From contig NCHB01000015.1 of assembly GCA_002281755.1 (NCBI GenBank), forward strand, positions 1 through 37,928: a stretch of 37,928 nt of DNA, given 5' to 3'. The position numbers and the translations under genes are program-made. This document shows positions 23,543 through 37,928 of this stretch, piece by piece. Each line of letters begins with the position of its first letter. The stretch's first letter is position 1. Below the pieces are notes generated by a model that made no database searches, was not told where the DNA came from, and was given only the letters and a program-made list of their open reading frames with translations. The DNA comes from Sulfurovum sp. 16-42-52 (GTDB lineage Bacteria > Campylobacterota > Campylobacteria > Campylobacterales > Sulfurovaceae).

Positions 23543-24094
23543 ATGTACAACAAACACAACAAGCTTCTTGGTATATTCATGGTTATCTCCTTTCTTTTGG
23601 TGCAAGGTTTATGGGCAAAATCTGCAAGCAACATCAATGCAGATACAGATGCTGCCATAGAAAAATTTAAAAGAGAAGTACCAGGAGGAGCTAATTTTCT
23701 CTCTAAAGTCAAAGGATATCTTGTCTTTCCTTCGGTGATAAAAGGTGGCTTCATAGTCGGTGCAGAGTATGGAGAAGGTGCATTGCGCATCAATGAGGAA
23801 ACAAAATATTATTACAGTATGACCTCAGGTTCTTTGGGTTGGCAAATTGGAGGACAGGTTTACTCTGTAGTGATTGCTTTTGTATCTCAAAATGCTTTGG
23901 ATAATTTTATCAGAAGCAACGGATGGGAAGCGGGTGTAGACGGCTCAATCGCTGTCGCAGAATGGGGAAAAGGTAAAGATCTTACCAGTATCAGCTATGA
24001 AAAACCGATTGTCGCTTTTATCTTTGATCAAAAAGGTCTCATGGCAAGTGCAAGTATCAAAGGAACTAAGTTCCAAAAAATCATACCAAATTAA
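23543..24094 (+). CDS. Periplasmic SYLF-domain lipid-binding protein
   Basis: This 183-residue protein has a signal peptide (about 1-25, ending LWAKS) and then a SYLF (Ysc84/DUF500) domain filling the rest. Typical segments are FLSKVKGYLVFPSVIKGGF, VGAEYGEGALRI, YYSMTSGSLGWQIGGQ and a C-terminal LMASASIKGTKFQKI. SYLF domains bind phosphoinositides or other lipids in eukaryotes; bacterial members are secreted, with unknown roles. It has its own promoter and good RBS. Its 3' end overlaps the convergent radical SAM gene by 14 nt. Confidence 0.88.
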   Translation: MYNKHNKLLGIFMVISFLLVQGLWAKSASNINADTDAAIEKFKREVPGGANFLSKVKGYLVFPSVIKGGFIVGAEYGEGALRINEETKYYYSMTSGSLGWQIGGQVYSVVIAFVSQNALDNFIRSNGWEAGVDGSIAVAEWGKGKDLTSISYEKPIVAFIFDQKGLMASASIKGTKFQKIIPN

Positions 24095-24953
24095 ACCTTT
24101 CTTTGTAAGAACACTTCTGGCAAAGCTCTTCACTCGCTTTGCCTACTTTAAATCCTTCCACCATAGCAACAGCGCGCTTAGAGTTTAAGATACTCTCCAA
24201 ACGCTCCTCGTGTAAATCTCCAAGCTCTATAATCCCGTCACAATCCAAACAACAAGGCACGACTTTCCCGCTTGCTAAAATGGCAACATGGGACTGAAGC
24301 CCTTGGCACGTGCCGTCTCCGTAATGGGTGTTTTTTAGTGAGGGCCACTCAAAATAAGTATCAAAATGTACAAGCACTTTGGGTGCCAAACGTATATTTT
24401 TGGGTCTTTGGGCGTAGATAGTATCCAAATCAAGCCTCACACCAAACGAGGAAGAAAGTGTCTCAAAAAGTGTTTCGTTGAAGTTCTGTTCACTCATTTG
24501 TTCATCCAGATTCCACACACGAAGGTTGATAAACACTTCCTCTGCTTGTTCAACCTTGGCTTTACAAAGCGAAAGCACAGGTGTGATATATTGATCAAAG
24601 GTTAAAGAAGTGTCATTTTTGTTAAAGCTGTTAAGAGAAATATTGATCTGTTTTACGCAGGGATGAAACAGAGTATCATACGAGTGTTTTTTTAAAAAAT
24701 ATCCGCTCGTTGTCAGCATGGCTCTGAGTCCATGTTTGTGCAAGATATCCAGATAGGCTTTCAAATTTGGCTGTGTAAGCGGATCGCCTACCACATGACA
24801 GGCTATCTCTTTGGTATAGTCTTTGGCTTGCATGACTACAGATTCAAAAAAGTCAAGATCCATTGCATTGGTAGGTAGAGACTTCGTAGGGCAAAAACTG
24901 CACGAGAGTCCGCACACATTGGTAATCTCCATATAGATACGGTAAAACTTCAT
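24081..24953 (-). CDS. Radical SAM enzyme with SPASM domain
   Basis: This 290-residue protein begins with the iron-sulfur and S-adenosylmethionine site, CGLSCSFC in the CxxxCxxC spacing (C14, C18, C21). A radical SAM barrel follows, with HVVGDPLTQPNL and TTSGYFL. The C-terminal SPASM-type Cys cluster runs CQGLQSHVAILASGKVVPCC, then LDCDG, and ends with ELCQKC. SPASM proteins modify peptides or small molecules through extra iron-sulfur clusters; the substrate here is unknown. ATG 24953 is chosen because AGGG lies 4 nt before it; a GTG directly upstream (24956) is possible. It follows the Cys-rich periplasmic protein gene by 6 nt and is therefore in the same operon. Confidence 0.88.
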   Translation of the reverse strand: MKFYRIYMEITNVCGLSCSFCPTKSLPTNAMDLDFFESVVMQAKDYTKEIACHVVGDPLTQPNLKAYLDILHKHGLRAMLTTSGYFLKKHSYDTLFHPCVKQINISLNSFNKNDTSLTFDQYITPVLSLCKAKVEQAEEVFINLRVWNLDEQMSEQNFNETLFETLSSSFGVRLDLDTIYAQRPKNIRLAPKVLVHFDTYFEWPSLKNTHYGDGTCQGLQSHVAILASGKVVPCCLDCDGIIELGDLHEERLESILNSKRAVAMVEGFKVGKASEELCQKCSYKERFNLV

Positions 24954-24959
24954 CACACC

Positions 24960-26018
24960 CTACTTCATGCAAGCAGAGAGATCGGTAATATTAAGGGCGC
25001 GATTGATACACGCCATGCGGGATTCCAACTCAATGAGTTCATCTTCTACACTATCGAGCAAGAGACTTTTCTGTTTCTCATCCCAAAGTAAAATATAACT
25101 CTGCCCTTCTGCTCCAAGCTCTGTTTTTATCGCGTTTAAGCTTTCCATACATTCATTTGCAGCGACAGGGTCATTTGCAGTCTGAAGGCACTCGCGTGCT
25201 TCTTTGATCGATATCAGCAAGGCAGGCAAAAGTTCTTTTTGTCTTTTATAGATATTTTGTCCCAAATAATTAATAAACTTGACTCGTTCTTCATCCGTTA
25301 TATTGTTATCACCATAAGATGTGTTATTCTCATTGATATCATACACTGCCTCATTAAATACTACCGAAAATTTCTCTGGCTGCAAAGCGTTTTGTGTTGC
25401 GATAGTATCATGAATCAAGGCAAACTCTTGCATAGGAAAATCGGGTGTATCACACCCTTCTTTAGAGGCATTGATATCAAGGGTGACACTGTTGGCTCTC
25501 TTGGTGTAATGCATATCCAACACTTTTGATTCTGACAGGAGTACAATGCCTTTATAGATACATTTTTTGATGCCGACCCCTTCCCATACATCGCAAGAAA
25601 TCCCGGCAACTTCCTCTTGTCCATTTTGTGTCAAAAAACGTGTTTGCTCTTCTGCGTTATACCCTGTCGCATTTTTACGTTCCAAAAGCTGTTCATTTTC
25701 ATAATCAACGGTAATCACTGAATCCTTTGTGTATTTCTTAAAACGCTTGACTTTTTGCTGGTGTTTCAGTGCACCTGTTGTTGATACAAGGTTCTCTTCT
25801 TCTTCGATGCGTGTATCACCCCAATCACTGAAGCGCAGCTTACCTTTACCCTTGATACTTAAATTTGTATCGGGTGTCAACACCGCTTCACTGGTGATAT
25901 CATAGGTAACCATACCTGTCTCTACCTCAAAAGGATGGGGCAGCGTTTGTGCACCAAAAGCAGAAAGACTCACTGCACACACAGCCGTAAGAACTCTAAG
26001 AAGATAACCTGAAGACAT
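24960..26018 (-). CDS. Cys-rich secreted protein, unknown function
   Basis: This 352-residue protein has a signal peptide (about 1-22, ending SAFGA). The N-terminal half is beta-rich (MVTYDITSEAVLTPDTNLSI, KGKGKLRFSDWGDTRIEEEE), resembling periplasmic lipoprotein-carrier-like or DUF4412-like domains, though I cannot confirm either. The C-terminal half is helical and Glu/Lys/Leu-rich. It has seven Cys in the mature part (SCDVW, KCIYK, GCDTP, ECLQT, ECMES, ACINR, ACMK). ATG 26018 has AAGGA 5 nt before it; the open frame further up (to 26087) overlaps the exporter gene. It lies 40 nt after the MMPL exporter and 6 nt before the radical SAM gene. Confidence 0.78.
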   Translation of the reverse strand: MSSGYLLRVLTAVCAVSLSAFGAQTLPHPFEVETGMVTYDITSEAVLTPDTNLSIKGKGKLRFSDWGDTRIEEEENLVSTTGALKHQQKVKRFKKYTKDSVITVDYENEQLLERKNATGYNAEEQTRFLTQNGQEEVAGISCDVWEGVGIKKCIYKGIVLLSESKVLDMHYTKRANSVTLDINASKEGCDTPDFPMQEFALIHDTIATQNALQPEKFSVVFNEAVYDINENNTSYGDNNITDEERVKFINYLGQNIYKRQKELLPALLISIKEARECLQTANDPVAANECMESLNAIKTELGAEGQSYILLWDEKQKSLLLDSVEDELIELESRMACINRALNITDLSACMK

Positions 26019-26058
26019 ATGTATCCTTAACGTTGTAGTATGTTTATTGCACACGATT

Positions 26059-28437
26059 TTAGCGAATCCACCCGCGTTTACTGACAAATATCATCCATGC
26101 AGGTGAGAGCAAAAGAGATGTAAAAAGCGCTAAAAGTATGATACTGCCACTAAGTAAGCCAAAATGCGCCACACTACTCTGCTCTGAAAACATCAATGCA
26201 TAAAAACCTAAAGAGAGCGCAACCCCTACAGTCACCATCGCTTGAGCGACTGTATGAAAAGTCTGTTCCATGGCTTTGATACTCTCTTGAGTTTCTTTAT
26301 AGTAGCGTTTAAATGTGTACATAAAGTGTATTGTAGTCTCTAAAGAAACGACAATAGCGATGAAGGCGACAAAAAGCGTCACCATATCCAGAGAAAGACC
26401 TAAAATGTACATCATAAACAATGTGACTAAAAAGGGTGCTCCCATCGGTATCATGGCACTAAGACCCAAACGCAATGTACCCAGAAGGAACATCATCGCT
26501 ATTGCCATACCCATAAAGACATTCATAAAACTCCAAACTGCTGCGTCCACTGCACGAGAGACTGTTGTGATCAGCAACGGCAGCATACCCGTTGTGATAC
26601 TCTCATCATCGGGAAATGTTTTCGCAGCTTGTTTTTTGATGTAACGTAGCACCTTCATCATCCCTGTAACGTCAGTTAAAGGGAGTTTAAGGGTAATACG
26701 TGTTTTCGAGAATTGACTGTCAACTACATCCTGAAGGTCATCTGATCCTGAGCTTTCAAATAAGAGCAATGCTTGTGCAACACTTTGCGCATCACCCGGA
26801 ATCACGTAGAATTTTTCCTGATTTTGATGTAAGGCTCTGTTTGTCTCTTTGATAATCGTAGCCAGTGAGACCACTTTACCGATACGCGTATCGCCGTCTA
26901 CATAGTTTTCCAAATCTTGCGTGAACAGATTTAGATTTTCCAACCTTTGAAGGTCACTCCAGCCATTTTCTTTTTTTGTATCTACGATGAGTTCTATACT
27001 CACCGATCCATGGAGTGCTGCATCGACCTCTTGGGTTGAGACACGCTCATTCGCTGAAGAAGAAAACCACGTCAGCGGATCATCTGAGATACCCAGCTTC
27101 ATCGCCGCTAGCGCTGAGACGATCATCACCAACACCGATGTGATGATAATCGTTTTATAGTACTTGACGGGAATCAAAGAAATTTTGGTAATCAGCCGAT
27201 GCCATCTATCTGCATGCAGAGGAACTTTTGGTTTGAGCGGAATGATACTCAGCAGTGCAGGCAAAAGTGTGAGCGTCAAAAACAATGTCACCAACACACC
27301 CAAAGCAGTATACATGCCAAGTTCGGCAAGTGACGCAAGATCAGAGTATGCAAATAAAGCCATGACTAAAGCGGTAATCAATACCAAGAAGACGATTGTA
27401 GATCCAGATTGTATGAGTGCACCGATGACTGCATCTTGCTTATTGCCTGTAGTATTAAATGTTTCAAAAAAAGAAGTAAGCAGATGCACAGATGCACCCA
27501 TACCTGATACCACAATGACAAATGGTACGATTTGCATAAGATCTACAAGACAAACACCCATCCAAGCCATCGTACCGACTGTGGCAAATACCGAAAGTAT
27601 GCTGACCACTAAAACAATGACGACCGCACTCACTCGCCTCAGAAGTACAAATAATGCCAAGAGGCTTACAGCCAAGAACAGACACATAGACCCTAACATC
27701 TCTATGTGCATCTGCGATGTAAATGCTTCAGTCAGTAAAGGTGAACCCGCGATATAGATCTCTAACCCTTCTTGCTTATACTTGCCTACTATCTGCTTAA
27801 GCGCTTCAATGAATGCTGCGTTTTGCGCATCACTTAAAAATGTTTTACTGCTTTTTGTTTGATTGTGTTCTAAAGATGGGTGCTCTGAAGTATTGGCTTC
27901 ACTTGCTTGCGAAAAAGCATCCGTCTCAAGTAAGATGGCTGTCATCTTTCCATCAGCACTTAAAAAGAGGTCTTTATAAAAATGCGATTCCATCGCCCTT
28001 TTTTTGATGACTTCTATCTGCTGTTGTGTCTGAGGAAAATGTGCCAGCAGATTCTCGGTCAAAAGCTTTTCACCCTCACCTCTGGTGTATCGTGCATTGT
28101 ATAAAGAGTTGATTTCAGCTAGATACGGTAAATTGCTCTCTAAATCTTCATGCATATCGCGCAGCATCTTGAGAAAATCCAGTGTAAAAATGGTATCGCT
28201 TTTAAGCCCTATGATAATCCGCTCATCACGTCCGAACTCTTCTGCGAATGTTTGGTATTGCTCCATCAGAGGACTGTTGTCGTACACCAAAATTCCGCTA
28301 CCGGAGGTTATCTTGAGTTGTGGCAGTTGGGAGAGGGGAAAAGCCAAAAGCAATAGCGTCACAACAATCACCCCTATGGGATTTTTTGTGATAAATCTTC
28401 CTGCTTTTTGCATCATCATTTCTAGTCGTTGGCGCAT
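26059..28437 (-). CDS. MMPL/RND-superfamily exporter
   Basis: This 792-residue inner membrane protein has the two-fold RND layout: TM1, a periplasmic loop (about 40-220), a TM2-6 bundle, TM7, a second loop (about 455-620), and TM8-12. It resembles the predicted RND exporters of COG1033 and hopanoid or lipid exporters, which are driven by the proton gradient. It is shorter than the drug-efflux RND proteins and has no adaptor beside it. The frame is open from ATG 28458, but AAGGAAGG stands just before ATG 28437, so I start there. A Cys-rich secreted protein and a radical SAM enzyme follow. Cargo unknown; a lipid or modified compound is an inference. Confidence 0.82.
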   Translation of the reverse strand: MRQRLEMMMQKAGRFITKNPIGVIVVTLLLLAFPLSQLPQLKITSGSGILVYDNSPLMEQYQTFAEEFGRDERIIIGLKSDTIFTLDFLKMLRDMHEDLESNLPYLAEINSLYNARYTRGEGEKLLTENLLAHFPQTQQQIEVIKKRAMESHFYKDLFLSADGKMTAILLETDAFSQASEANTSEHPSLEHNQTKSSKTFLSDAQNAAFIEALKQIVGKYKQEGLEIYIAGSPLLTEAFTSQMHIEMLGSMCLFLAVSLLALFVLLRRVSAVVIVLVVSILSVFATVGTMAWMGVCLVDLMQIVPFVIVVSGMGASVHLLTSFFETFNTTGNKQDAVIGALIQSGSTIVFLVLITALVMALFAYSDLASLAELGMYTALGVLVTLFLTLTLLPALLSIIPLKPKVPLHADRWHRLITKISLIPVKYYKTIIITSVLVMIVSALAAMKLGISDDPLTWFSSSANERVSTQEVDAALHGSVSIELIVDTKKENGWSDLQRLENLNLFTQDLENYVDGDTRIGKVVSLATIIKETNRALHQNQEKFYVIPGDAQSVAQALLLFESSGSDDLQDVVDSQFSKTRITLKLPLTDVTGMMKVLRYIKKQAAKTFPDDESITTGMLPLLITTVSRAVDAAVWSFMNVFMGMAIAMMFLLGTLRLGLSAMIPMGAPFLVTLFMMYILGLSLDMVTLFVAFIAIVVSLETTIHFMYTFKRYYKETQESIKAMEQTFHTVAQAMVTVGVALSLGFYALMFSEQSSVAHFGLLSGSIILLALFTSLLLSPAWMIFVSKRGWIR

Positions 28438-28471
28438 ACCCTTCCTTGTGCTGTGCATTAAAGGTATGATT

Positions 28472-28509: not shown

Positions 28510-29661
28510 TCAAGACAACTTTTTGAGAAACACAAAGAGTACAGACAAACTCAGCGTACCCCAAAACGAAAACTGCAATGTGATGTGCATACCAAAGTAT
28601 TCCCATAAAAGACCGCTGATATATGCACCTAATGCACCAAAGAGTGCGACACCTGCATAAAATATGCCATAGACAGAACCTTTATTGTCTGCTTTTTGTG
28701 AAATGTATGCGCGGTTGGCATTGAGTGAAGCAACGGTAAAAAGTCCAAAGAAGATATAGGCTATCCACGTATATACAGGACTTTGCAGATAGAGAAATCC
28801 CTGTGAAACTGCCCCGCAGACATAGGCAAATGCCAAAATCTGCTTCACGCCAAATTTGTCTATGAGTATTCCGAAAAAATAACTACTCACTGTCTGCACG
28901 CCTGCAGATAAAACAAAAAGCAAAGGAATGACTGTTGTGGCTATCCCTACACTTTTGGCCTGTACAGTAAAAAAAGCTGTACTAAAAGCAAAAAGTAAAA
29001 ATACAAAATAAAAGAAGAGTGATGTGATGGTTTTTTTATCGTTTGGGGTCAATGAAAATGATTGTGTACTCTCCATCTTTTGCCTAGATGTATCCTGCAC
29101 AAAAAATATAAGAATGATAAGTCCCACTACACCAGGCAGGATAGTCGCATAAAAAATATTTCGTATCACAGTTTCATTCTGTCCAAAGAACCATAAGAGT
29201 CCAAAAAGGATCAACGCACCACTCAGTTCCCCGGCGATATCCATCATCTTATGAAAGCCGAAGGTTTTTCCTGAAGCATTCTCTTTACTGTACAAAGAGA
29301 TCATCATATCTTTAGGTGCAGAACGTAATCCTTTCCCCAACCTCTCAAGCGCCTGCAGTCCGGCAATACTTTGATATCCGTGTGTCAACCCTATCAAAGG
29401 CTTACTGAGAGCCGAAAGTGCATATCCTCCGACTACAAGAGGCTTTACGATGCCATACCTATCAGAGATATAACCCGAAAACAAACGCAAGGCATAAGAG
29501 ACAAAAGTAGATATCGCAACGATAATACCCAGTTTGTCCATTCCCTCATGCAAAATCAACACCACAAAAATAGGCAAAATAGGACTAATCATTGCAGATG
29601 CCATGTCGGTGAAGAAACTCACCCAGCCTAACATGACTACATTTTTATTGATGCTTTTCAC
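28510..29661 (-). CDS. MFS transporter, drug-efflux type
   Basis: This 383-residue protein has twelve predicted membrane helices. Between TM2 and TM3 it has the major facilitator signature GYISDRYGIVKPL (about 62-74). Loop segment LERLGKGLRSAPKDMMI (about 110-126) is typical of a subgroup of bacterial MFS exporters. It starts 10 nt after the RND permease stop and is therefore most likely the last gene of the tetR-controlled operon. A secondary exporter after a tripartite pump suggests they share an inducer. Substrate unknown. Confidence 0.84.
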   Translation of the reverse strand: MKSINKNVVMLGWVSFFTDMASAMISPILPIFVVLILHEGMDKLGIIVAISTFVSYALRLFSGYISDRYGIVKPLVVGGYALSALSKPLIGLTHGYQSIAGLQALERLGKGLRSAPKDMMISLYSKENASGKTFGFHKMMDIAGELSGALILFGLLWFFGQNETVIRNIFYATILPGVVGLIILIFFVQDTSRQKMESTQSFSLTPNDKKTITSLFFYFVFLLFAFSTAFFTVQAKSVGIATTVIPLLFVLSAGVQTVSSYFFGILIDKFGVKQILAFAYVCGAVSQGFLYLQSPVYTWIAYIFFGLFTVASLNANRAYISQKADNKGSVYGIFYAGVALFGALGAYISGLLWEYFGMHITLQFSFWGTLSLSVLFVFLKKLS

Positions 29662-29671
29662 GACAAACTAT

Positions 29672-32600
29672 CTACTCTGCCTTTCCATTCTCATAATACT
29701 TTCTTAGCCATCTGTCAGCCGGGTTAATGAGTCTGTACATTACAGGCACCACAAGCAAAGTCAATACCATTGAGCTTAAAAGTCCTCCGATGATGGAGAC
29801 TGCCATAGGTGAATTGGTCTCAGAGCCCAGTCCTGTTGCAAATGCAAGTGGCAGCATGGCAAATATCATCGCGATGGTCGTCATCAAAATTGGTCTGAGT
29901 CTTTTTTCTCCTGCTTCGATGAGTGCTTCATCGGCACTTTTGCCCTCACTCATGGCTGCATTGGCAAAATCGACCAGCAAAACGGCATTTTTACCTACCA
30001 TACCCATCAGAAGCATAAAACCAATCATAACAAAAAGACTGAACTGTTGTCCGCTCATAAACAAAGCCAGCATCACCCCGATAATACTCAAAGGTAGCGC
30101 CATCATGATGATAATAGGCTGTATCAAAGACTCATACAAAATCGCCAAGATGATAAACATCAAGATCACTGAAAGCCCCAGTGCAGCCCCAAAAGCCTGA
30201 CCTGTTTTGACCATCTCTTCTGCAAATCCCGTAAATCGGTAGGTCACACTCGGTGGCAAAAGAGAATCTATGGACTCTTTGGTGTAGCCAACAGCCCCAC
30301 CCAAATCAAGCCCAAACAAATCAGCATAGACAATCACCTGTCTTTGTCTATCAAAGTGGTTAATCGCAGCCAGTGCCGAACTCTTTGAAAATGAAACCAA
30401 ACCATCCAGATAGACCAGCTCTCCTGAGGCTGTACGAAGCTGAATTTTCTTGATATCTTCGATGGAAACTCTATTGGCATCATTGAATCTAAGCGTAATA
30501 TTGTACTGCTTGCCGTTTTCTTCAAAATAAGATATCTCCAAATCACTTGAAAATGCAATGGCTATCGCAGAGGCGATTTGTGAAGCGCTGATGCCCAGTT
30601 TATTGGCATTGGCTCTTAAAATATTGATATCGATTTGTGGTTTTCCGTCATCGAGGTTTGTATCGACATCCACAAAGCCTTTTTTCTTTTTTAAATGATC
30701 GGTCAATTTTTGTGTCGCCACTTTTAAGTCCTCAAAAGAATCAGACTTTAAGACGATCTGATAGGGAACAGAGACACCCGTACCTTTGATATTGGGTATA
30801 GCCGCAGCCGTGATAAACAAGTCCTTTTTAAAGGGCTCCAACTCATGTCTAAAATTTTGAACGATTTGTTCTTGCTTGAGTGAACGGTCTTTTCTATCTG
30901 AAAGCTTGACGTAGATCACAGCTTTATGTTTTTCACCTGCTGCATTAGAGCCGATACTCAAGGTAGTGTAAAGTACATCTTTGTTTTTACGCACCACATC
31001 TTCAACTGCTTTGGATTTTCTGATCATCTCCTCCAAAGAGACACTCGGATTGGCTTTGAGAGCTATCTCAAACTCGGCTTTATCTTCTTTGGGGATAAAA
31101 TCCATACCGATTTTAGGAAAAAGACTCAGTGAAGCAAAGAAACCAATCAGCACCATCAGCAAGGTCAGTTTTTTATACTTCAGTACCCACTTTAACGCAT
31201 TCTCATACACCTTTTCCATACGCTTAAAGATGGGTTCTGTGATGGTATAAAACCTGCTCTCTTTTTTATGTAACACCCTTGCACTCAAACTCGGTATAAA
31301 ACTCAGTGCCACAGAGTAAGAGATGATAACCGCAAACCCGACCGTCATCGCAAAACTTTCAAAAAACTTGCCTACGATACCGCTCATAAAGGAGACAGGG
31401 ATAAACACCGCCAAAAGCATCGCAGAGATAGCCAAAATGGTAAATGCCATCTCTTTTGTCCCTGCCACGGCTGCTTCAAATTTTCCCATCCCCTCTTCTA
31501 GCTTTTTGTAGATGTTTTCAATGACAACGATGGCATCATCTATAATAATCCCAATCGCCAAGGTAAGTCCGATCAGCGTCATTTTATTGAGCTCAAAGCC
31601 CATATAGTCCATCAGCGCAAAGGTTCCGAAGATGGAAGCTGGTATGGACAGAGCTGAGACAAAAGTAATGGTCAGGTTTCTTAAAAATACAAAGATAATC
31701 AACACAGCCAAAATCGAACCGTAAATAAGGTCAAACTTCACATGCTCCAAAGAGGCGATAATAAAAGGAGAGGTGTCATTTAGACTCATGACCCCGTATT
31801 TATCTCCAGCCATAGTCTCAAGTTCAGGCAGCACCTCTTTTACTTTTTTGACGATATCAATCGTGTTGGTACCGGAAATTTTTTGCACTTCAAGCATCAC
31901 ACCCTCTACGCCGTTGTAAGAGGCGTAACTTTTAGAATCACTGAGGGAGTCTTCCACTTTTGCGATATCTTTGAGCCTGATTTCATCTTTTATTCTGATG
32001 TTTTCCAACTCTTCTATACTCAAGGCATCTGATTTGGTTTTAAGGGTAAACTCTTTAGTGGAAGAGATGAGTTTTCCGCCTCCTATTTTTGAGTTTTCAT
32101 TGGCAACGATTTGGTTGAGTTCGCTCACTGTGATACCAAATTTATTGAGCAGATTTGGATCAGGGTAGATCTTGATCTCTCTGTCTTTGTATCCGATGAT
32201 GTTAATCGCCCCGACACCGTTTATTTTTTGTAGTTTGGGCTTGGCTTTTTCATCGGCAAAAAGCATAAGATTTTGAATCGTGTCATTTTTTGCGGTTAAA
32301 AACACATTGATGACTGATGCCCCGCCGATATCTAGCTTGCTGACCAAAGGTGTTTTGACATCTTTTGACAAGACAACGGCTGAGACTTTGTCACGGACAT
32401 CGTTGGTCGCTTCATCGATGTTTCGTTCCAAAAAGAACTTCACCATAATGACACTCACGCCTTCAGAACTCGTTGAAGTAACCGAATCCACGCCACCTAT
32501 GCGGGAAATCGCCTCTTCAATCTTATCTGTAACCTCTGACTCCACTGTTGAAGCCTCTGCCCCAGGATAGACTGTCTGAACCGTGACAATAGGAAAATCG

Positions 32601-32713
32601 ACATTGGGAAAAAGTGCTGAAGGCATAGACTTGAAACTCATTAGTCCAAAGATTACCAACGTCACCACATACATTAAGGTCGTAATGGGTCTGTTTATCG
32701 CTAATTTATACAT
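29672..32713 (-). CDS. RND efflux permease (HefC/AcrB-like)
   Basis: This 1013-residue proton-driven inner-membrane pump is of the HAE1 type. The N-terminus is typical (INRPITTLMYVVTLVIFG), followed by periplasmic porter and docking domains (about 30-330). TM4 has the proton-relay pair D392-D393 in GIIIDDAIVVIENI. The second periplasmic loop (about 540-850) and TM8-12 follow. In Helicobacter pylori the matching gene is hefC, and the order TolC-adaptor-RND is the same. It lies 6 nt after the adaptor gene. Likely substrates are detergents, bile-like amphiphiles, dyes or antibiotics, by family only. Confidence 0.93.
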   Translation of the reverse strand: MYKLAINRPITTLMYVVTLVIFGLMSFKSMPSALFPNVDFPIVTVQTVYPGAEASTVESEVTDKIEEAISRIGGVDSVTSTSSEGVSVIMVKFFLERNIDEATNDVRDKVSAVVLSKDVKTPLVSKLDIGGASVINVFLTAKNDTIQNLMLFADEKAKPKLQKINGVGAINIIGYKDREIKIYPDPNLLNKFGITVSELNQIVANENSKIGGGKLISSTKEFTLKTKSDALSIEELENIRIKDEIRLKDIAKVEDSLSDSKSYASYNGVEGVMLEVQKISGTNTIDIVKKVKEVLPELETMAGDKYGVMSLNDTSPFIIASLEHVKFDLIYGSILAVLIIFVFLRNLTITFVSALSIPASIFGTFALMDYMGFELNKMTLIGLTLAIGIIIDDAIVVIENIYKKLEEGMGKFEAAVAGTKEMAFTILAISAMLLAVFIPVSFMSGIVGKFFESFAMTVGFAVIISYSVALSFIPSLSARVLHKKESRFYTITEPIFKRMEKVYENALKWVLKYKKLTLLMVLIGFFASLSLFPKIGMDFIPKEDKAEFEIALKANPSVSLEEMIRKSKAVEDVVRKNKDVLYTTLSIGSNAAGEKHKAVIYVKLSDRKDRSLKQEQIVQNFRHELEPFKKDLFITAAAIPNIKGTGVSVPYQIVLKSDSFEDLKVATQKLTDHLKKKKGFVDVDTNLDDGKPQIDINILRANANKLGISASQIASAIAIAFSSDLEISYFEENGKQYNITLRFNDANRVSIEDIKKIQLRTASGELVYLDGLVSFSKSSALAAINHFDRQRQVIVYADLFGLDLGGAVGYTKESIDSLLPPSVTYRFTGFAEEMVKTGQAFGAALGLSVILMFIILAILYESLIQPIIIMMALPLSIIGVMLALFMSGQQFSLFVMIGFMLLMGMVGKNAVLLVDFANAAMSEGKSADEALIEAGEKRLRPILMTTIAMIFAMLPLAFATGLGSETNSPMAVSIIGGLLSSMVLTLLVVPVMYRLINPADRWLRKYYENGKAE

Positions 32714-32719
32714 CTAAAC

Positions 32720-33427
32720 CTACTTCATTTGTGTGGTAATCAACCCATCACCAAAGAGTCCCACAGGTAAATCTTTGGCATGGACTTCCGCTTGCATCTT
32801 TCTGTTATTGGCATCAGCAGACGGATAGACTTTGAGGATTTTACCTTCATACTGCCTGCTGTCACCATCGAGTTTATAGCTAAAGGTATCGCCCACTTTG
32901 ATCTCTTTCCAGTACTTCTGATCAAAAGAGAGTACCAGTTTTCGTGCATGCAGACTTTGAAGCTTCAATACGGTTCTGAGTAATGCACCGCTCACCGTGT
33001 CACCTACTTCAAGTTCTTTCCAAAAGATAATGCCCTCAAACGGCGCTTTTAAAATCGTTTTATCAAAAAGTGCCTGCTGCAAAATCACTTGGTCTTTGGC
33101 ACTTTCATATTTGTTGGCATACTGATCCAAGCTTTCCTGATCCACAAGATGTTTGACTTTGAGTTGGCGTTCAAAATCTTTTTTGGCATATTTGAATTGC
33201 GTTTTAGCCAGCTGTAAACTGGCATTAATGTCATCACTTTCCAACGTAGCCAAAATCTCATTTTCTTTCACCACACTTCCGATGTCAATATTGACATTAC
33301 CGACGATACCACTGGCATTAAATGCCAATTGTGCACTCTTTTGTGCCTCAACGGTAAAAGTAGCATACACCTCACCCGCTTGTAAACCCAGAACCAAACC
33401 TACTACACCCCAGATTATTTTTTTCAT
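32720..33427 (-). CDS. Periplasmic adaptor (membrane fusion protein) of RND pump, HefB-like
   Basis: This 235-residue protein has an N-terminal signal peptide (about 1-16), a lipoyl half-motif (VNIDIGSVVKENEILATLES), a short alpha-hairpin with coiled-coil pattern (about 70-110), the second lipoyl half (DKTILKAPFEGIIFWKELEVGDTVSG) and a beta-barrel. It is much shorter than AcrA (397), lacking a long hairpin and part of the proximal domain. H. pylori HefB is equally short. It overlaps the TolC gene by 4 nt and links TolC to the RND permease. Confidence 0.9.
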   Translation of the reverse strand: MKKIIWGVVGLVLGLQAGEVYATFTVEAQKSAQLAFNASGIVGNVNIDIGSVVKENEILATLESDDINASLQLAKTQFKYAKKDFERQLKVKHLVDQESLDQYANKYESAKDQVILQQALFDKTILKAPFEGIIFWKELEVGDTVSGALLRTVLKLQSLHARKLVLSFDQKYWKEIKVGDTFSYKLDGDSRQYEGKILKVYPSADANNRKMQAEVHAKDLPVGLFGDGLITTQMK

Positions 33428-34671
33428 CGTATAAACTCCTTCGGGCTTTTGCCTGCATAATAATAATAAATTGACTTATTGATCTCGTAGGTATAAAGCG
33501 TCTCTTTATACCGTGCCTGTGCCAGTGTTTTTTGTGCCAGTGCATCCAAAAACGCGATGTTATCGGCTAGCCCCACTTCAAACTTCTGCTTCAACACACT
33601 ATATGTACTGTTGGCAGCCTGAAGTTCACTCTGTGCACTTTTGAGCTGTGTACGGGTTGTCTCTAAACTCTTTTGGGAAAGCGAAAAATTCATTCTTTGC
33701 TCTTTTTTAGCATAGTCAATCTCTGAGAGAAGTGACAACTTCTGATAACGAACCGCTTCACTCTCCTGTGAAATTTTACCCGCATCAAAGAGTCTCATCC
33801 CCACCGAAAGTGTCAACTCATTTTGATGATCAATCAAGATGGAATCACCGCCAAAACCTGCTGTGTTGACTGTATCGTCAAACTTTGACTGATGATAAGT
33901 GTCTGATAAATCAACATGCGGCCCATAACCAGCTTTGATGGCTTTGGAAGCTTCACCCACGGCGCCTGCTTTGGCTTCAAGTGCCCTGATGGTCTCCAAG
34001 GTTTCAAACCGGACATTCTTAGGCTCAGCAAAAGTGTTTTTTTGTAAACTGTTTACCGGTAAACCCGTAAGGAGTTTGAGATTTTGTTCACTGGTCTCAA
34101 GTGCCAACTTCGTCTTTGCCATCGTAAAATCATTGGCATCATAGACTGCCTGAAGTTTATACACCTCTTCCTGGGTCGAGAGTCCTGCAACTTGAAACTT
34201 TTCTACCCGTTCTATCTGTGCTTTAAGTTCACTTGAACGCTCCTGCAGTGCTGCAAGTACGGCTTTTTGCGTTTGTATGGTGTAGTAGTGGCGCACGATT
34301 TCAAGCGCGATGCTTTTTTCAAACGCACTTTTTTCAAACAAAGCCGCCGTGTACTCAAACTGCTTTTCGCCCAAAAGCGCACTTTTCCTGCCTCCATCAT
34401 AGAGATTGAGGTTTGCTGTAGCAAAACCTGTAAGTGTTTGACCTGGTGAGACGATGTTGGTAGGTGTAGCCTGCGTGCCGTTTGCCCCCACATCTACCGT
34501 TGGCCAGTACGCACTTTGTGCCGCACCGACACCCTCTTTTGCCGCCTTAATGGAAATGGCTTTGGCTTCAATCCGCCCATTTTTGCTGTTGGCATTTTCT
34601 ATCAAGGTTTTAAGCCCGTAACTCTGCGAAAATGCAAACAATGGCAGTAACACACCCCATAGTATCTTCAT
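33424..34671 (-). CDS. TolC-family outer membrane efflux protein, HefA-like
   Basis: This 415-residue protein has a signal peptide (about 1-17). It also has two OEP repeats of long heptad helices with short strands, the TolC architecture (GVGAAQSAYWPTVDVGANGT; ANLNLYDGGRKS; LSVGMRLFDAGKIS). It forms a trimeric channel through the outer membrane and periplasm. It comes directly after the tetR stop with no gap, and overlaps the adaptor gene by 4 nt. The order tetR-tolC-adaptor-RND differs from cmeR-cmeABC of Campylobacter jejuni and agrees with hefABC. Confidence 0.92.
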   Translation of the reverse strand: MKILWGVLLPLFAFSQSYGLKTLIENANSKNGRIEAKAISIKAAKEGVGAAQSAYWPTVDVGANGTQATPTNIVSPGQTLTGFATANLNLYDGGRKSALLGEKQFEYTAALFEKSAFEKSIALEIVRHYYTIQTQKAVLAALQERSSELKAQIERVEKFQVAGLSTQEEVYKLQAVYDANDFTMAKTKLALETSEQNLKLLTGLPVNSLQKNTFAEPKNVRFETLETIRALEAKAGAVGEASKAIKAGYGPHVDLSDTYHQSKFDDTVNTAGFGGDSILIDHQNELTLSVGMRLFDAGKISQESEAVRYQKLSLLSEIDYAKKEQRMNFSLSQKSLETTRTQLKSAQSELQAANSTYSVLKQKFEVGLADNIAFLDALAQKTLAQARYKETLYTYEINKSIYYYYAGKSPKEFIR

Positions 34672-35265
34672 CTACTCCCCTTTTTTATTTGTTGTAAGTA
34701 CCATATCTAAAAATAGATTGATTTCATTTTGAACATCATAACCGCTAAGACGCGAATCAACAACCAGCCCCGTTGCAAAAACAGCAAAAGAACTCACGCT
34801 GATAGCTATGGAAGACTCTATCTCACCTGAAGCTTTCGCTGCTTCCACAATACCGCCCAGTATCACCATAAACCGTTCTCTGCACTGTGCACTAAAGTCC
34901 AGCATCTCTTGGGATTCCTGCATCAAAGAGATAGCAAGAAACTCTTTATAAACTTTGAGATGTTTTTTTGCATTTTCATCTTCAAACAGTATATTGAAAA
35001 AATGAAAGAGCTTTTGCCGTGTCGAGTCTGAAGTTTCGATGCGCTCTAACAGTTTTTTCTCATGGTCTGCGATGAATGTGGTGATGATTTCAAAAACAAT
35101 ATCTTCTTTGTTCTCAAAATACTCATAAATCGTCCCTTTCCCCACGCCTGCAGTTTGCGCGATGTGCGAAATGGTCAATGAATTGATACCGTACTCAAGC
35201 AACAGTTCCCTGCAAGAGAGTGCGATATTTCTTCTTTTTTCCTCTTTGTTTACTACGATTGCCAC
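34672..35265 (-). CDS. TetR-family repressor of the efflux operon
   Basis: This 197-residue protein has an N-terminal helix-turn-helix (about 20-62; GINSLTISHIAQTAGVGKGT, then IYEYFENKEDI) of TetR type and a helical ligand domain. It is the first gene of the operon it is predicted to control. GTG start, RBS AAGGA 5 nt upstream. A palindrome TGACCG-T-CGGTCA lies just past the -10 box (see 35284-35310), so it should repress itself and the pump until an effector binds. Its effector is likely a pump substrate, by analogy to AcrR/TtgR/CmeR. Confidence 0.92.
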   Translation of the reverse strand: MAIVVNKEEKRRNIALSCRELLLEYGINSLTISHIAQTAGVGKGTIYEYFENKEDIVFEIITTFIADHEKKLLERIETSDSTRQKLFHFFNILFEDENAKKHLKVYKEFLAISLMQESQEMLDFSAQCRERFMVILGGIVEAAKASGEIESSIAISVSSFAVFATGLVVDSRLSGYDVQNEINLFLDMVLTTNKKGE

Positions 35266-35385: not shown

Positions 35386-35958
35386 CTAAAAGCGTCTCAT
35401 ACCCTCTGCCACTTGGGTTTCCAGCTGTGAAAATGCGCTGTCCATCGCTTGCACGATACTCTTGGCAGTGTCACCCGTTTTAACGCTGGTACTAAAAAGT
35501 TTTGCCTGATGCGAGTTGTTTTGAAGGTTGGCTATCTCCCAGTTGGCATCAAGATAGACCCTATCACCTTCAGCAATAAACCGCGTCACCTGTACCCGCA
35601 CCTTCAACTCAGGCTGCGTGTGGGTATCCCACGGGTACGCATACACTTGTGGCTGGTGAAAAGTTTTTTGCAGGTACCCTATGAGTCTGTTCGTCAGACC
35701 TGTGTTCATATCTTCTGCCCACACGGCACTTGAATTGAAACTGATCTGAGAGCTTGAGTGCGCCACGGCAAGCAGTCGCTTATCGAAATAGCTCGGCAGC
35801 GTAACTTTTTCTACGCCTACGCTTTTACCCAAAGCCGTGTAGGTTTTTGCAGGTATCGTAGGAACTGAAAGCATATAATAACTGCTTGTTGCACCACACC
35901 CTGCCACTATCATAACCGCTACAGGGATGGCTATCGTTTTGAGTAATCGTATTATCAT
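35386..35958 (-). CDS. pqiC: PqiC-like outer membrane lipoprotein (ABC transport auxiliary)
   Basis: This 190-residue protein has a lipobox ending VAGC (C21) and the ABC_trans_aux/DUF330 fold. Segments include YYMLSVPTIPA, VGVEKVTLPSYFDKRLLAV, WAEDMNTGLTNRLIGYL and a final AMDSAFSQLETQVAEGM. In E. coli PqiC is the outer-membrane lipoprotein of the PqiABC intermembrane lipid transport system. Here it directly follows the MCE protein gene, with a 1-nt overlap (TAATG). No terminator is visible after the stop. Confidence 0.87.
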   Translation of the reverse strand: MIIRLLKTIAIPVAVMIVAGCGATSSYYMLSVPTIPAKTYTALGKSVGVEKVTLPSYFDKRLLAVAHSSSQISFNSSAVWAEDMNTGLTNRLIGYLQKTFHQPQVYAYPWDTHTQPELKVRVQVTRFIAEGDRVYLDANWEIANLQNNSHQAKLFSTSVKTGDTAKSIVQAMDSAFSQLETQVAEGMRRF

Positions 35959-37574
35959 TACTGTTCTCCAAAAATAAGTGAATCGGGTTTACGGTTGAGC
36001 ATATCTAAAAACTGCTGCATGGACTTGGATGTTTCGGTAACTACTTTCAGCGTCTGGGCTATCTGACTGGCTAAAAGCGACTGATCATCATAGCTTTTGA
36101 TGGTTTGTTGTGCCGTAACCAAAGTTTTAGTGAGCTCTTTAAGTGTTTTATCCAACTCATCCGGCATGGTCTGAAATGACTTCTTGCCACTGAGCGCATT
36201 GAGGTCTTTGACTGATTTGCCCAGATCACTTAAAAGTCCATCTGAGTTGTCAACCACTTTGTTAAGCGAAGCAAGCAGCTGCTCAAGCGGTAGCGCATTG
36301 AGCTTTTGTAGCAATTTCTCAGCTTCATCCATCACTCCACCCCCATCACTCTTCACTGAAGGCAAGAGTGCAAACTTTTTACCCTGAACAAGGGTCTGTT
36401 TTGTGACATTTGCTTCAAAGCCCAAATCAACGAACAATGTACCGGTCAAAGGATCAGAGGGTTGCATCTTGGCACGCAACCCCTCTTCAACCATCTGTCT
36501 AAAATTTCGGTATGCTTTTGTCACTGTGTCGTCTTTTTGGGCAAATGCCGAGGTATCGATGTCCACCACCACACTACCTTGCATGACATGTGTCTCTTTA
36601 ACATACTGCAGTGCAATATTTTTCACCCTCCCAACTTCATAACCGCTATACTCCACCATCGCACCCACTCGTAATGCCGAAAGCGACTCTTGTGTCATGA
36701 TCTCGAAAGTTTTGACAAACTCACCGCCCTTGCCTACTTTGGTTCCTTCCGCGGCATTGGAGTTTTTATACAGACGAAAGACATAATGATCAGGAACAGG
36801 ATCATTGACGTCTTCATGGGTGGAGGAAAACTCTATACCGCCTTGCACCAGGTTGGATAAAGGGGCAACATTGATGTCAAACCTACCGTTTGCATATCTC
36901 AAATCTATGGTACTGGTGACCCAAAACTTAGAATCTCTATGGACATAAGGAACATACTGCTGTTGTATGAGAACGATAAAGTCAATATTTTGGCTGTCAA
37001 GTGAGATGTTGACATACTCTACCCGGCCAACGGTCAGATTTTTAAAGTGTACGGGTGTTCCCCTGCTGATGTTGAATCCTGAAGGTGCGGTCAGCTTGTA
37101 GTAAACACCCTCTTTGTTTTGATGAAAAGCATCTTTGAGTCCATAAAAATTATCTTTAAAGCGTCCCTCTTTTTCAGAATACATATTGATATACGTTCCT
37201 GAAAGCAGGGTATCCAGACCTGAAACACCCGTAACCCCTACTTCAGGTTTGACAATCCAAAACTTTGCTTTTTCATTCAGATAGGGTTTTGCCAGCTTAT
37301 CGATACGGGCAACCACCACGACCCCCTTGCCATTTTTTTGCAACTCGATCTTCTCCACAGTACCGATGGGAACATCTCTAAATTTAATTTGACTCTGACC
37401 TGCGTTAAGCCCTTCATTTTTAGGAAATATAATGCGAATCTCTTCGCCCCGTTCTGAGAAATATTGAAATGCCAGCCAACCTGCAACCATCAACGCAACA
37501 AAAGGCACTATCCATATCGAAGTGAGTAGATTGAAGCGTGAAGACTCTTCTATAAGCGGGGTCTGTTCTGACAT
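35958..37574 (-). CDS. pqiB: PqiB-type MCE protein, lipid transport across the periplasm
   Basis: This 538-residue protein has one N-terminal transmembrane helix (about 17-35), three MCE/MlaD domains (about 45-140, 160-250 and 285-390), and a helical C-terminal needle with heptads (about 415-525). The MCE signatures are visible as GQSQIKFRDVPIGTVEKIEL, RGTPVHFKNLTVGRVEYVNI and VGAMVEYSGYEVGRVKNIAL. PqiB hexamers form a hollow syringe that spans the periplasm and carries phospholipids. It starts 1 nt after the pqiA-like stop and overlaps pqiC by 1 nt. Length and domain count match the PqiB family. Confidence 0.93.
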   Translation of the reverse strand: MSEQTPLIEESSRFNLLTSIWIVPFVALMVAGWLAFQYFSERGEEIRIIFPKNEGLNAGQSQIKFRDVPIGTVEKIELQKNGKGVVVVARIDKLAKPYLNEKAKFWIVKPEVGVTGVSGLDTLLSGTYINMYSEKEGRFKDNFYGLKDAFHQNKEGVYYKLTAPSGFNISRGTPVHFKNLTVGRVEYVNISLDSQNIDFIVLIQQQYVPYVHRDSKFWVTSTIDLRYANGRFDINVAPLSNLVQGGIEFSSTHEDVNDPVPDHYVFRLYKNSNAAEGTKVGKGGEFVKTFEIMTQESLSALRVGAMVEYSGYEVGRVKNIALQYVKETHVMQGSVVVDIDTSAFAQKDDTVTKAYRNFRQMVEEGLRAKMQPSDPLTGTLFVDLGFEANVTKQTLVQGKKFALLPSVKSDGGGVMDEAEKLLQKLNALPLEQLLASLNKVVDNSDGLLSDLGKSVKDLNALSGKKSFQTMPDELDKTLKELTKTLVTAQQTIKSYDDQSLLASQIAQTLKVVTETSKSMQQFLDMLNRKPDSLIFGEQ

Positions 37575-37853
37575 TTAACTGTTCTCCTTAATCAATCGTT
37601 CATCAAAGGCATGGGCTGAGAGTAGGGTAAAAAATACCGAAATCGCAAATGCCGTAGCAGCAGTTCCAGCGACAATCTGTATGTTGGCAAGATGAATGAG
37701 TGCCGCCAGTATAGCGACTACGAACACGTCTATCATCGACCATGGTCCCACAAACTCTGTGAGGTAGTACAGTTTAAATTTACGCATTCTCTTATCTTTT
37801 CCCAGCGGGTATTTTACACTAATTAACAGATAGAACCCTCTGATTAACCCCAC
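37575..37853 (-). CDS. Truncated PqiA-like membrane protein (C-terminal half only)
   Basis: This 92-residue frame with two hydrophobic helices carries the C-terminal PqiA signature WSMIDVFVVAILAALI and LLSAHAFDERLIKE. Typical PqiA domains are about 200 residues with four helices and an N-terminal Cys-rich zinc site; here the frame starts at the loop before helix 3. TAG stands directly before the GTG (37853), and stops occur in all three frames within the 75 nt beyond, so no upstream half remains in the window. An ATG at 37787 is the alternative start. It may be a non-functional remnant or a small working subunit. Confidence 0.6.
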   Translation of the reverse strand: MGLIRGFYLLISVKYPLGKDKRMRKFKLYYLTEFVGPWSMIDVFVVAILAALIHLANIQIVAGTAATAFAISVFFTLLSAHAFDERLIKENS

Positions 37854-37928
37854 CTAACCACGATAAAACCGAAATTTAGCTAAAATAGAACTATCAAGAG
37901 CAACAAATATCTATCAAGGGATTATCGT
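37854..37928. other. Noncoding stretch at the window edge
   Basis: 75 nt with stops in all reverse frames. On the forward strand it carries TAAAAT near 37880, and AAGGGATTATCGT at the very end resembles the start of a leader for a gene beyond the window. Nothing firmer can be said. Confidence 0.3.

Follow-up and report, generated by a model that had tools for sequence, protein, structure and literature searches.

A predicted LolA-fold secreted protein and a BtrN-like radical SAM protein form a conserved gene pair at a Pqi-type locus of Sulfurovum

The window analyzed here is a 37,928-nucleotide (nt) contig of Sulfurovum sp. 16-42-52 (NCHB01000015.1), part of a draft genome of 1,987,317 bases in 66 contigs. 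We examined a row of minus-strand genes that ends in a gene for a secreted protein, here called SEC, followed by one for a radical SAM (S-adenosylmethionine) protein, here called rSAM. The two are a conserved pair, nearly always joined where both occur. An earlier note on this DNA had grouped them with the exporter gene upstream, all three on one strand and separated by 40 and 6 nt, and open frames were found at these places: MMPL at 28437-26059 (-), with a further in-frame ATG at 28458; SEC at 26018-24960 (-), 352 residues long; and rSAM at 24953-24081 (-), 290 residues long, with an in-frame GTG 3 nt upstream of its start. The exporter and enzyme identities given in the note were borne out. 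The 792-residue MMPL or HAE3-type RND protein matched PF03176 at 73.7 bits (cut-off 20.5) and TIGR00921 at 124.5 bits, under the cut-off of 351.9. The rSAM protein, a twitch/SPASM radical SAM protein whose closest solved relative is BtrN, matched Radical_SAM at 41.9 bits (cut-off 29.5) and SPASM at 46.7 bits (cut-off 21.5). SEC begins with a stretch that by eye resembles a signal peptide. One cysteine (Cys 14) lies in this stretch and seven lie in the mature part (142, 153, 189, 277, 290, 337 and 350), a count from the translation that agrees with the note. The adjoining convergent gene, at 23543-24094 (+), encodes a secreted SYLF (Ysc84) protein (PF04366, 46.1 bits; NF049970, 169.2 bits, under the cut-off of 200) and overlaps the end of rSAM by 14 nt.

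The note had omitted the PqiA-PqiB-PqiC operon (MCE lipid transport) that lies upstream on the same strand. The 3' end of PqiA, a Pqi/Let inner-membrane protein (37575-37853 (-); PF04403, 66.1 bits, cut-off 23.8), adjoins PqiB (35958-37574 (-)), an MCE/MlaD-domain intermembrane transport protein of 538 residues with three MCE domains (PF02470, 104.1 bits over three MlaD stretches; NF008070 PqiB, 366.6 bits, under the cut-off of 525). PqiC, the outer-membrane auxiliary lipoprotein of the Pqi system, follows at 35386-35958 (-) with a 1-nt overlap (PF03886, 96.4 bits, cut-off 26; NF033620 pqiC, 34.6 bits, under the cut-off of 200). The contig ends within PqiA, and the frames of its last ~75 bases carry stops (window 37575-37928).

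Between PqiC and MMPL lies an exporter cassette, again on the minus strand. Its first gene encodes a TetR regulator (34672-35265; PF00440, 47.9 bits), which is followed by a TolC-type outer-membrane channel (33424-34671; PF02321, 103.6 bits), a periplasmic adaptor of the MFP type (32720-33427; PF13437, 42.5 bits; TIGR01730, 97.4 bits, cut-off 94.9), an AcrB-type RND pump (29672-32713; PF00873, 929 bits) and an MFS transporter (28510-29661; PF07690, 97 bits). A scan of the window gave 31 promoter-like sites, in line with chance (mean 30.4), and 20 terminator-like sites (mean 11.2); we draw no conclusion on transcripts from these counts.

To compare the locus among relatives, 150 related genomes were searched with the MMPL, SEC and rSAM proteins and the positions of the matches were compared. 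Of 111 genomes with any rSAM match, 85 were kept (best row at least 93 bits); the dropped rows, at 31 bits or less, were other radical SAM proteins. SEC had any match in 69 genomes, and 58 were kept as SEC-bearing (>90 bits), the remainder being partial, distant or N-half relatives. Both proteins occurred in 49 genomes. In 48 of these 49 the two genes were adjacent, on the same strand and 2-31 nt apart as measured between aligned ends, with a 61-bit SEC fragment beside rSAM (G008) counted as adjacent. The exception was G005, where SEC and rSAM lie on different contigs and the rSAM fragment begins at base 1 of its contig. SEC also stood directly upstream of rSAM in 14 of the best 80 named rSAM loci, with some SEC genes cut by the contig end.

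Co-occurrence was assessed with a Fisher test, uncorrected for relatedness, over the 78 genomes of the genus. Both genes were found in 47, SEC only in 7, rSAM only in 9 and neither in 15 (p 1.8e-5), the two occurring together more often than expected. Among the 42 genomes at least 90% complete the counts were 31, 4, 4 and 3 (p 0.077), and among the 29 at least 97% complete p was 0.29. Strict adjacency argues for some tie between SEC and rSAM.

The pair has a recurring setting. PqiB (68 rows kept, at least 328 bits) shared a contig with SEC in 33 of 50 genomes with both, and in 31 genomes no more than 20 kb lay between the two, which were on the same strand in all. In 14 of those 31 the gap between PqiB and SEC was 687-797 nt, which is gene-sized; in the mapped loci with such a gap it is filled by PqiC (L176-L179, by match to locus L153, whose PqiC was identified by Pfam). 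We mapped the window and 11 selected loci drawn from genomes in which SEC and PqiB linkage was already known. The order PqiA-PqiB-PqiC, then 0 to 8 other genes, then SEC-rSAM-SYLF was seen in 11 of the 12 maps; the twelfth (L175) is cut and ends at TolC before SEC is reached. The place between PqiC and SEC held nothing, an unrelated gene group, MMPL, a TetR-TolC-MFP-RND row, MFS, or RND with MMPL, LolA and DUF1302 genes. This place is thus an exchange site for exporters, and the window MMPL is one of its contents. In L180 and L181 this place holds two opposite-strand genes (~175-230 and 530-620 residues) and one of ~600-620 residues. Two PqiA-type genes stand beside PqiB in L175-L185, by comparison with L153, where both genes match PF04403. 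At least 46 genomes have a SYLF gene that converges on rSAM from no more than 1 kb away, a lower bound since the SYLF rows covered only some genes per genome, picked by hand near rSAM. Up to three tandem SYLF genes converge on rSAM in L067, L075, L167, L068 and L185, and one does so in the window. A second SEC-type paralogue, with the same cysteine pairing by eye, lies directly upstream of SEC in two loci (L025:1-1116 and L079:752-1885).

Separate losses and unrelated contexts elsewhere argue that the tie between SEC and rSAM is not obligate. Of the 85 rSAM-bearing genomes, 36 had no SEC above 90 bits; among them are all 22 that lie outside the family, and also G006, G011, G017, G018, G019, G021, G040, G044 and G066. 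Conversely, SEC was present without rSAM in nine genomes, one of them (G063) on a contig ending inside SEC. SEC without rSAM is seen in six Sulfurovum genomes, 84-99% complete, with no rSAM match listed (G002, G009, G050, G055, G065 and G076). In five of the mapped SEC loci that lack rSAM, SYLF comes after SEC, and at the G076 locus the contig ends there. On a SEC tree, three label changes were needed for the rows without rSAM; three of these nine rows are distant relatives, and the rSAM-bearing L170 falls, on a long branch, inside the close clade that lacks rSAM.

Beyond Sulfurovum, the neighbors of rSAM were unrelated to those in the window. By eye they included GlyS (L097), GlnD-GlmS-GGDEF (L101, Sulfurospirillum), IspA-transketolase-rRNA methylase (L123, Sulfuricurvum) and RseP-YggS (L136, Arcobacter). 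By Pfam, further relatives had DnaG, a release factor, an HhH-GPD repair protein, an FtsX/MacB-type permease and a riboflavin-synthesis gene beside rSAM. No partner was common to the families seen outside Sulfurovum. A search for a steady partner among recurring neighbors in 20 loci gave only families with many weak, low-identity matches and was set aside. A HIT-domain gene was directly joined to rSAM in 6 of 110 loci (L049, L065, L099, L100, L101 and L102) and lay within 1 kb in two more (L103 and L126). These loci are mostly from Sulfurospirillum and not all independent; the HIT gene follows rSAM in loci of the Sulfurospirillum type and precedes it in L065. It is possible that this neighbor hints at a nucleotide-linked step.

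These contexts bear on the explanation that SEC and rSAM are neighbors merely by an inherited old gene order, with rSAM working independently and without a functional link to SEC, Pqi or MMPL. Besides the unrelated settings of rSAM and the loss of each gene without the other, the unequal conservation of the two proteins is consistent with it: within the genus, identity to the window protein was 54-85% for rSAM (one fragment 96%) and 28-85% for SEC (rows above 90 bits). However, SEC and rSAM remain adjacent in genomes where PqiB lies elsewhere and in loci with exporter cassettes between PqiC and SEC, and such an arrangement would rarely be preserved neutrally. We consider an inherited order without function fairly unlikely.

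The radical SAM motif of rSAM starts at residue 14, and Cys 14/18/21 (CX3CX2C) were present in 44 of 45 aligned rows, the remaining row (L135) reading X there. Cys 216, 234, 235, 278 and 281 were present in all 45. In a profile search against the PDB, BtrN came first (E 1.4e-18; next best protein 1.1e-7), and Cys 216/234/278/281 aligned with BtrN 169/187/232/235, as counted by hand on the profile alignment. The rSAM model had a mean predicted local distance difference test score (pLDDT) of 93.3, and a fold search with it again placed BtrN first (4m7t, E 1.4e-10, TMt 0.71). None of the best 25 of 39 NCBIfam rows for rSAM reached its cut-off. Since only Radical_SAM and SPASM exceeded Pfam cut-offs, no fused precursor-recognition (RRE) domain, a mark of RiPP or peptide-maturing SPASM systems, was found in rSAM; a separate RRE gene was not searched for.

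SEC showed little similarity to known families by sequence. It had no Pfam match at E<=1, and its sole NCBIfam match scored 13.8 bits against a cut-off of 160. Three weak sequence matches to solved structures, the best at E 0.0089, were regarded as chance. An AlphaFold2 model built from 15 sequences (mean pLDDT 78.6) predicted ~11 successive strands and, after them, a helical half. With this model, Foldseek placed the LolA structure 9gtx first (E 1.4e-5) and also matched VioE and further LolA structures. In VIA comparisons DUF1849, VioE, RseB and LolA matched over residues ~30-200 at Z about 7-10, with 7.2-9.6 for the LolA/VioE/RseB-like folds; against LolA 4ki3 the score was Z 8.1 with a root-mean-square deviation of 4.2 over 140 residues, moderate values for a predicted model. 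Fold matches of the C-terminal half (helical bundles, receptor or fusion-tag chains) were taken as uninformative. By its model, SEC is built like a carrier or an envelope protein and not like a cysteine-rich precursor peptide.

The cysteines of SEC were compared between loci with and without rSAM. Each of Cys 142/153 (CX10C), 277/290 and 337/350 (both CX12C) was conserved in 35 or more of the 36 rows that stand beside rSAM, and the same six were kept in all nine rows without it (six close, three distant). Both CX12C pairs sit in the helical C-terminal half. The three spaced pairs are most simply read, from their pattern in the alignment, as periplasmic disulfides.

We next considered the explanation that rSAM modifies the SEC polypeptide before export, the pair being maturase and substrate. 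The gene order fits, since rSAM directly follows SEC in all but one of the genomes that have both, and the C-terminal motif of SEC is strongly conserved (mostly NITDLSxCMK). The rSAM fold is also that of enzymes with peptide or protein substrates, namely SuiB, EpeE, SkfB and anSME. Against this explanation, rSAM often occurs without a clear SEC and SEC is kept in nine genomes without rSAM. No near-invariant cysteine was specific to the 36 rows beside rSAM, and the six conserved cysteines persist in all nine relatives that lack it (these are not exactly the nine genomes without rSAM). Positions 139, 173, 343 and 348 differ in the close clade without rSAM, but L170, which carries rSAM, departs from the pattern at each of these positions. 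Among other rSAM-bearing loci, L096 and L171 lack Ser348 and L034 lacks Asn343, and these exceptions break the specificity. The absence of a fused RRE domain also speaks against this explanation. As for a precursor peptide, the gene adjoining rSAM encodes a 352-residue protein with a signal-peptide-like start. Structure prediction, which the note had proposed as a check, gave a LolA/VioE-like N-terminal half in place of a cysteine-rich peptide substrate. We think it unlikely that SEC is the substrate of rSAM.

The MMPL gene behaved differently from the pair. MMPL matches were listed in at least 104 genomes, and 39 were kept as holding a close relative (at least 340 bits). Of these 39, 18 also had SEC, on one contig in 14. 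Among the 14, MMPL stood directly upstream of SEC in four (the window's own genome, G000, and G064, G026 and G030; gaps 43-276 nt as measured between aligned ends), at ~2.3-2.5 kb in eight, at 5.3 kb in G009 and at 17 kb in G039. Of the 49 genomes in which SEC and rSAM both occur, just 12 have MMPL within 2.5 kb of SEC. Its association with SEC was not positive (odds 0.42, p 0.13 in the 78 genomes; odds 0.1, p 0.014, fewer than expected, in the 42), nor was that with rSAM (odds 1.6, p 0.45). In the mapped L075, L081 and L185 the ~2.4-kb gap between MMPL and SEC is occupied by a LolA_like gene and a DUF1302 barrel gene (L081 by gene sizes only; in L075, PF17131 at 184 bits and DUF1302 at 85 bits by Pfam), and MMPL stands with these genes also where SEC is missing (L067 and L169). 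They are not among the neighbors of the window MMPL. In its own genome the best LolA_like relative, at 34% identity, lies on another contig, and a search run without a positive control found no DUF1302 relative.

On adjacency and co-occurrence we reject MMPL as a core member with SEC and rSAM, and by gene order the window MMPL is one of several exchangeable exporter genes between PqiC and SEC. Both comparisons had been suggested in the earlier note, and each came out in favor of SEC with rSAM and against MMPL: the three genes are rarely adjacent, and within the genus rSAM is not mostly alone. The note's proposal of MMPL, SEC and rSAM as one dedicated modification-export system is therefore very improbable, the direct adjacency in four genomes notwithstanding.

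The reading we favor, with moderate confidence, is a lipid-transport locus of the Pqi type to which a LolA-fold carrier has been appended, together with a more widely spread BtrN-like enzyme. The window row would form the 3' part of such an intermembrane lipid-transport (MCE) locus in Sulfurovum. By gene order, the recurring frame runs PqiA-PqiB-PqiC, then SEC-rSAM, then convergent SYLF, with exporters varying between PqiC and SEC. SEC would be a disulfide-stabilized periplasmic carrier of predicted LolA fold, bringing a lipid or another hydrophobic molecule to the Pqi channel or collecting it from there. The rSAM protein may be a BtrN-like enzyme that oxidizes a cytoplasmic small molecule and holds a single auxiliary [4Fe-4S] cluster: the SAM radical would take a hydrogen atom and the second electron would pass to the auxiliary cluster. 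Since the other searched Campylobacterota families with rSAM have no clear SEC, rSAM would not need SEC. That rSAM keeps its position behind SEC suggests that, in Sulfurovum, the rSAM product either is a molecule handled by SEC or affects one.

Several observations weigh against this reading. Lipid binding by SEC is read from the fold only, for which the Foldseek TM-scores are low (TMt ~0.4) and the VIA scores of Z 7-10 middling, and unrelated helical rows are interspersed among the matches. A BtrN-like fold also fits the peptide-acting SuiB, EpeE and SkfB in the same list, where SuiB and DesII come within two orders of magnitude of the 4m7t E-value; with anSME also listed, rSAM may act on a peptide instead. 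In two one-contig genomes (G024 and G051) SEC is far from PqiB and SEC and rSAM are still joined, so that the tightest tie is that between SEC and rSAM and not that between SEC and Pqi. Weak N-half relatives of SEC (35-40 bits) occur in the order-level genomes G097, G115 and G129, two of which (G097 and G115) have rSAM, so a far SEC relative is possible in those genomes. The weakest step is the suggested link between the rSAM product and a molecule handled by SEC, and any part of this product in lipid transport would be speculative. A stronger version, in which SEC and rSAM form a dedicated add-on to the MCE transporter, with rSAM making an oxidized lipid or head group and SEC handing it to PqiABC, is speculative and in our view improbable.

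If true, the add-on version would connect a radical SAM enzyme with lipid transport between membranes, and if SEC is a carrier for PqiABC, lipid entry or exit at the Pqi tube gains a testable soluble partner. The favored reading of the locus itself gives a Campylobacterota Pqi-type locus that carries a secreted protein of predicted LolA fold and a place where whole exporters are exchanged, and the comparison brings to light a conserved BtrN-like radical enzyme in several Campylobacterota families. In the openly licensed PMC literature we found no paper linking Sulfurovum with PqiB, or an MCE protein with a LolA-like protein in intermembrane lipid transport, a weak absence. A word search of the PqiABC paper (PMC10897342) found no mention of LolA.

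Among known systems, the MMPL-containing exporter genes of relatives resemble the AmeABCD HAE3 export cassette of Castellaniella defragrans, which, as described in PMC6394551, combines an HAE3-type MMPL protein, a DUF1302 outer-membrane protein and a LolA-superfamily protein. On that description, a matching MMPL, DUF1302 and LolA arrangement is found in the Sulfurovum relatives L185, L067, L169 and L154, with two MMPL genes in L067, L154 and L169. The window differs in having a single MMPL without DUF1302 and LolA/DUF1329 partners beside it.

For rSAM, BtrN (2-deoxy-scyllo-inosamine dehydrogenase, PDB 4m7s/4m7t) was the best match by both profile and fold. According to PMC9012708, BtrN has an auxiliary cluster with four cysteine ligands and carries out a two-electron oxidation. 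The two proteins have the CX3CX2C motif in common and are similar in length (290 against ~270 residues), and the four auxiliary-cluster cysteines recur in rSAM at matching spacing. They differ in that identity over the fold match is 15% and rSAM has a fifth invariant cysteine (235) beside Cys 234. SEC resembles LolA, VioE and RseB in its N-terminal half (residues ~30-200) according to the predicted model, and differs from them by an added helical C-terminal half with two CX12C pairs and by the lack of a sequence match. DUF4412 (PF14371) was touched by 2 of 15 SEC-family rows (best E 0.0039), far under safe assignment, and did not match the window SEC.

The mapped Sulfurovum relatives have two short PqiA genes, whereas E. 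coli has a single, longer one. The gene order itself is shared with E. coli PqiABC (PMC10897342): genes for PqiA, the MCE-domain protein PqiB and the lipoprotein PqiC follow one another on a single strand and overlap or almost do. In contrast to E. coli, the Sulfurovum operon is followed by the genes for a secreted protein of predicted LolA fold and a radical SAM protein, with exporter cassettes between.

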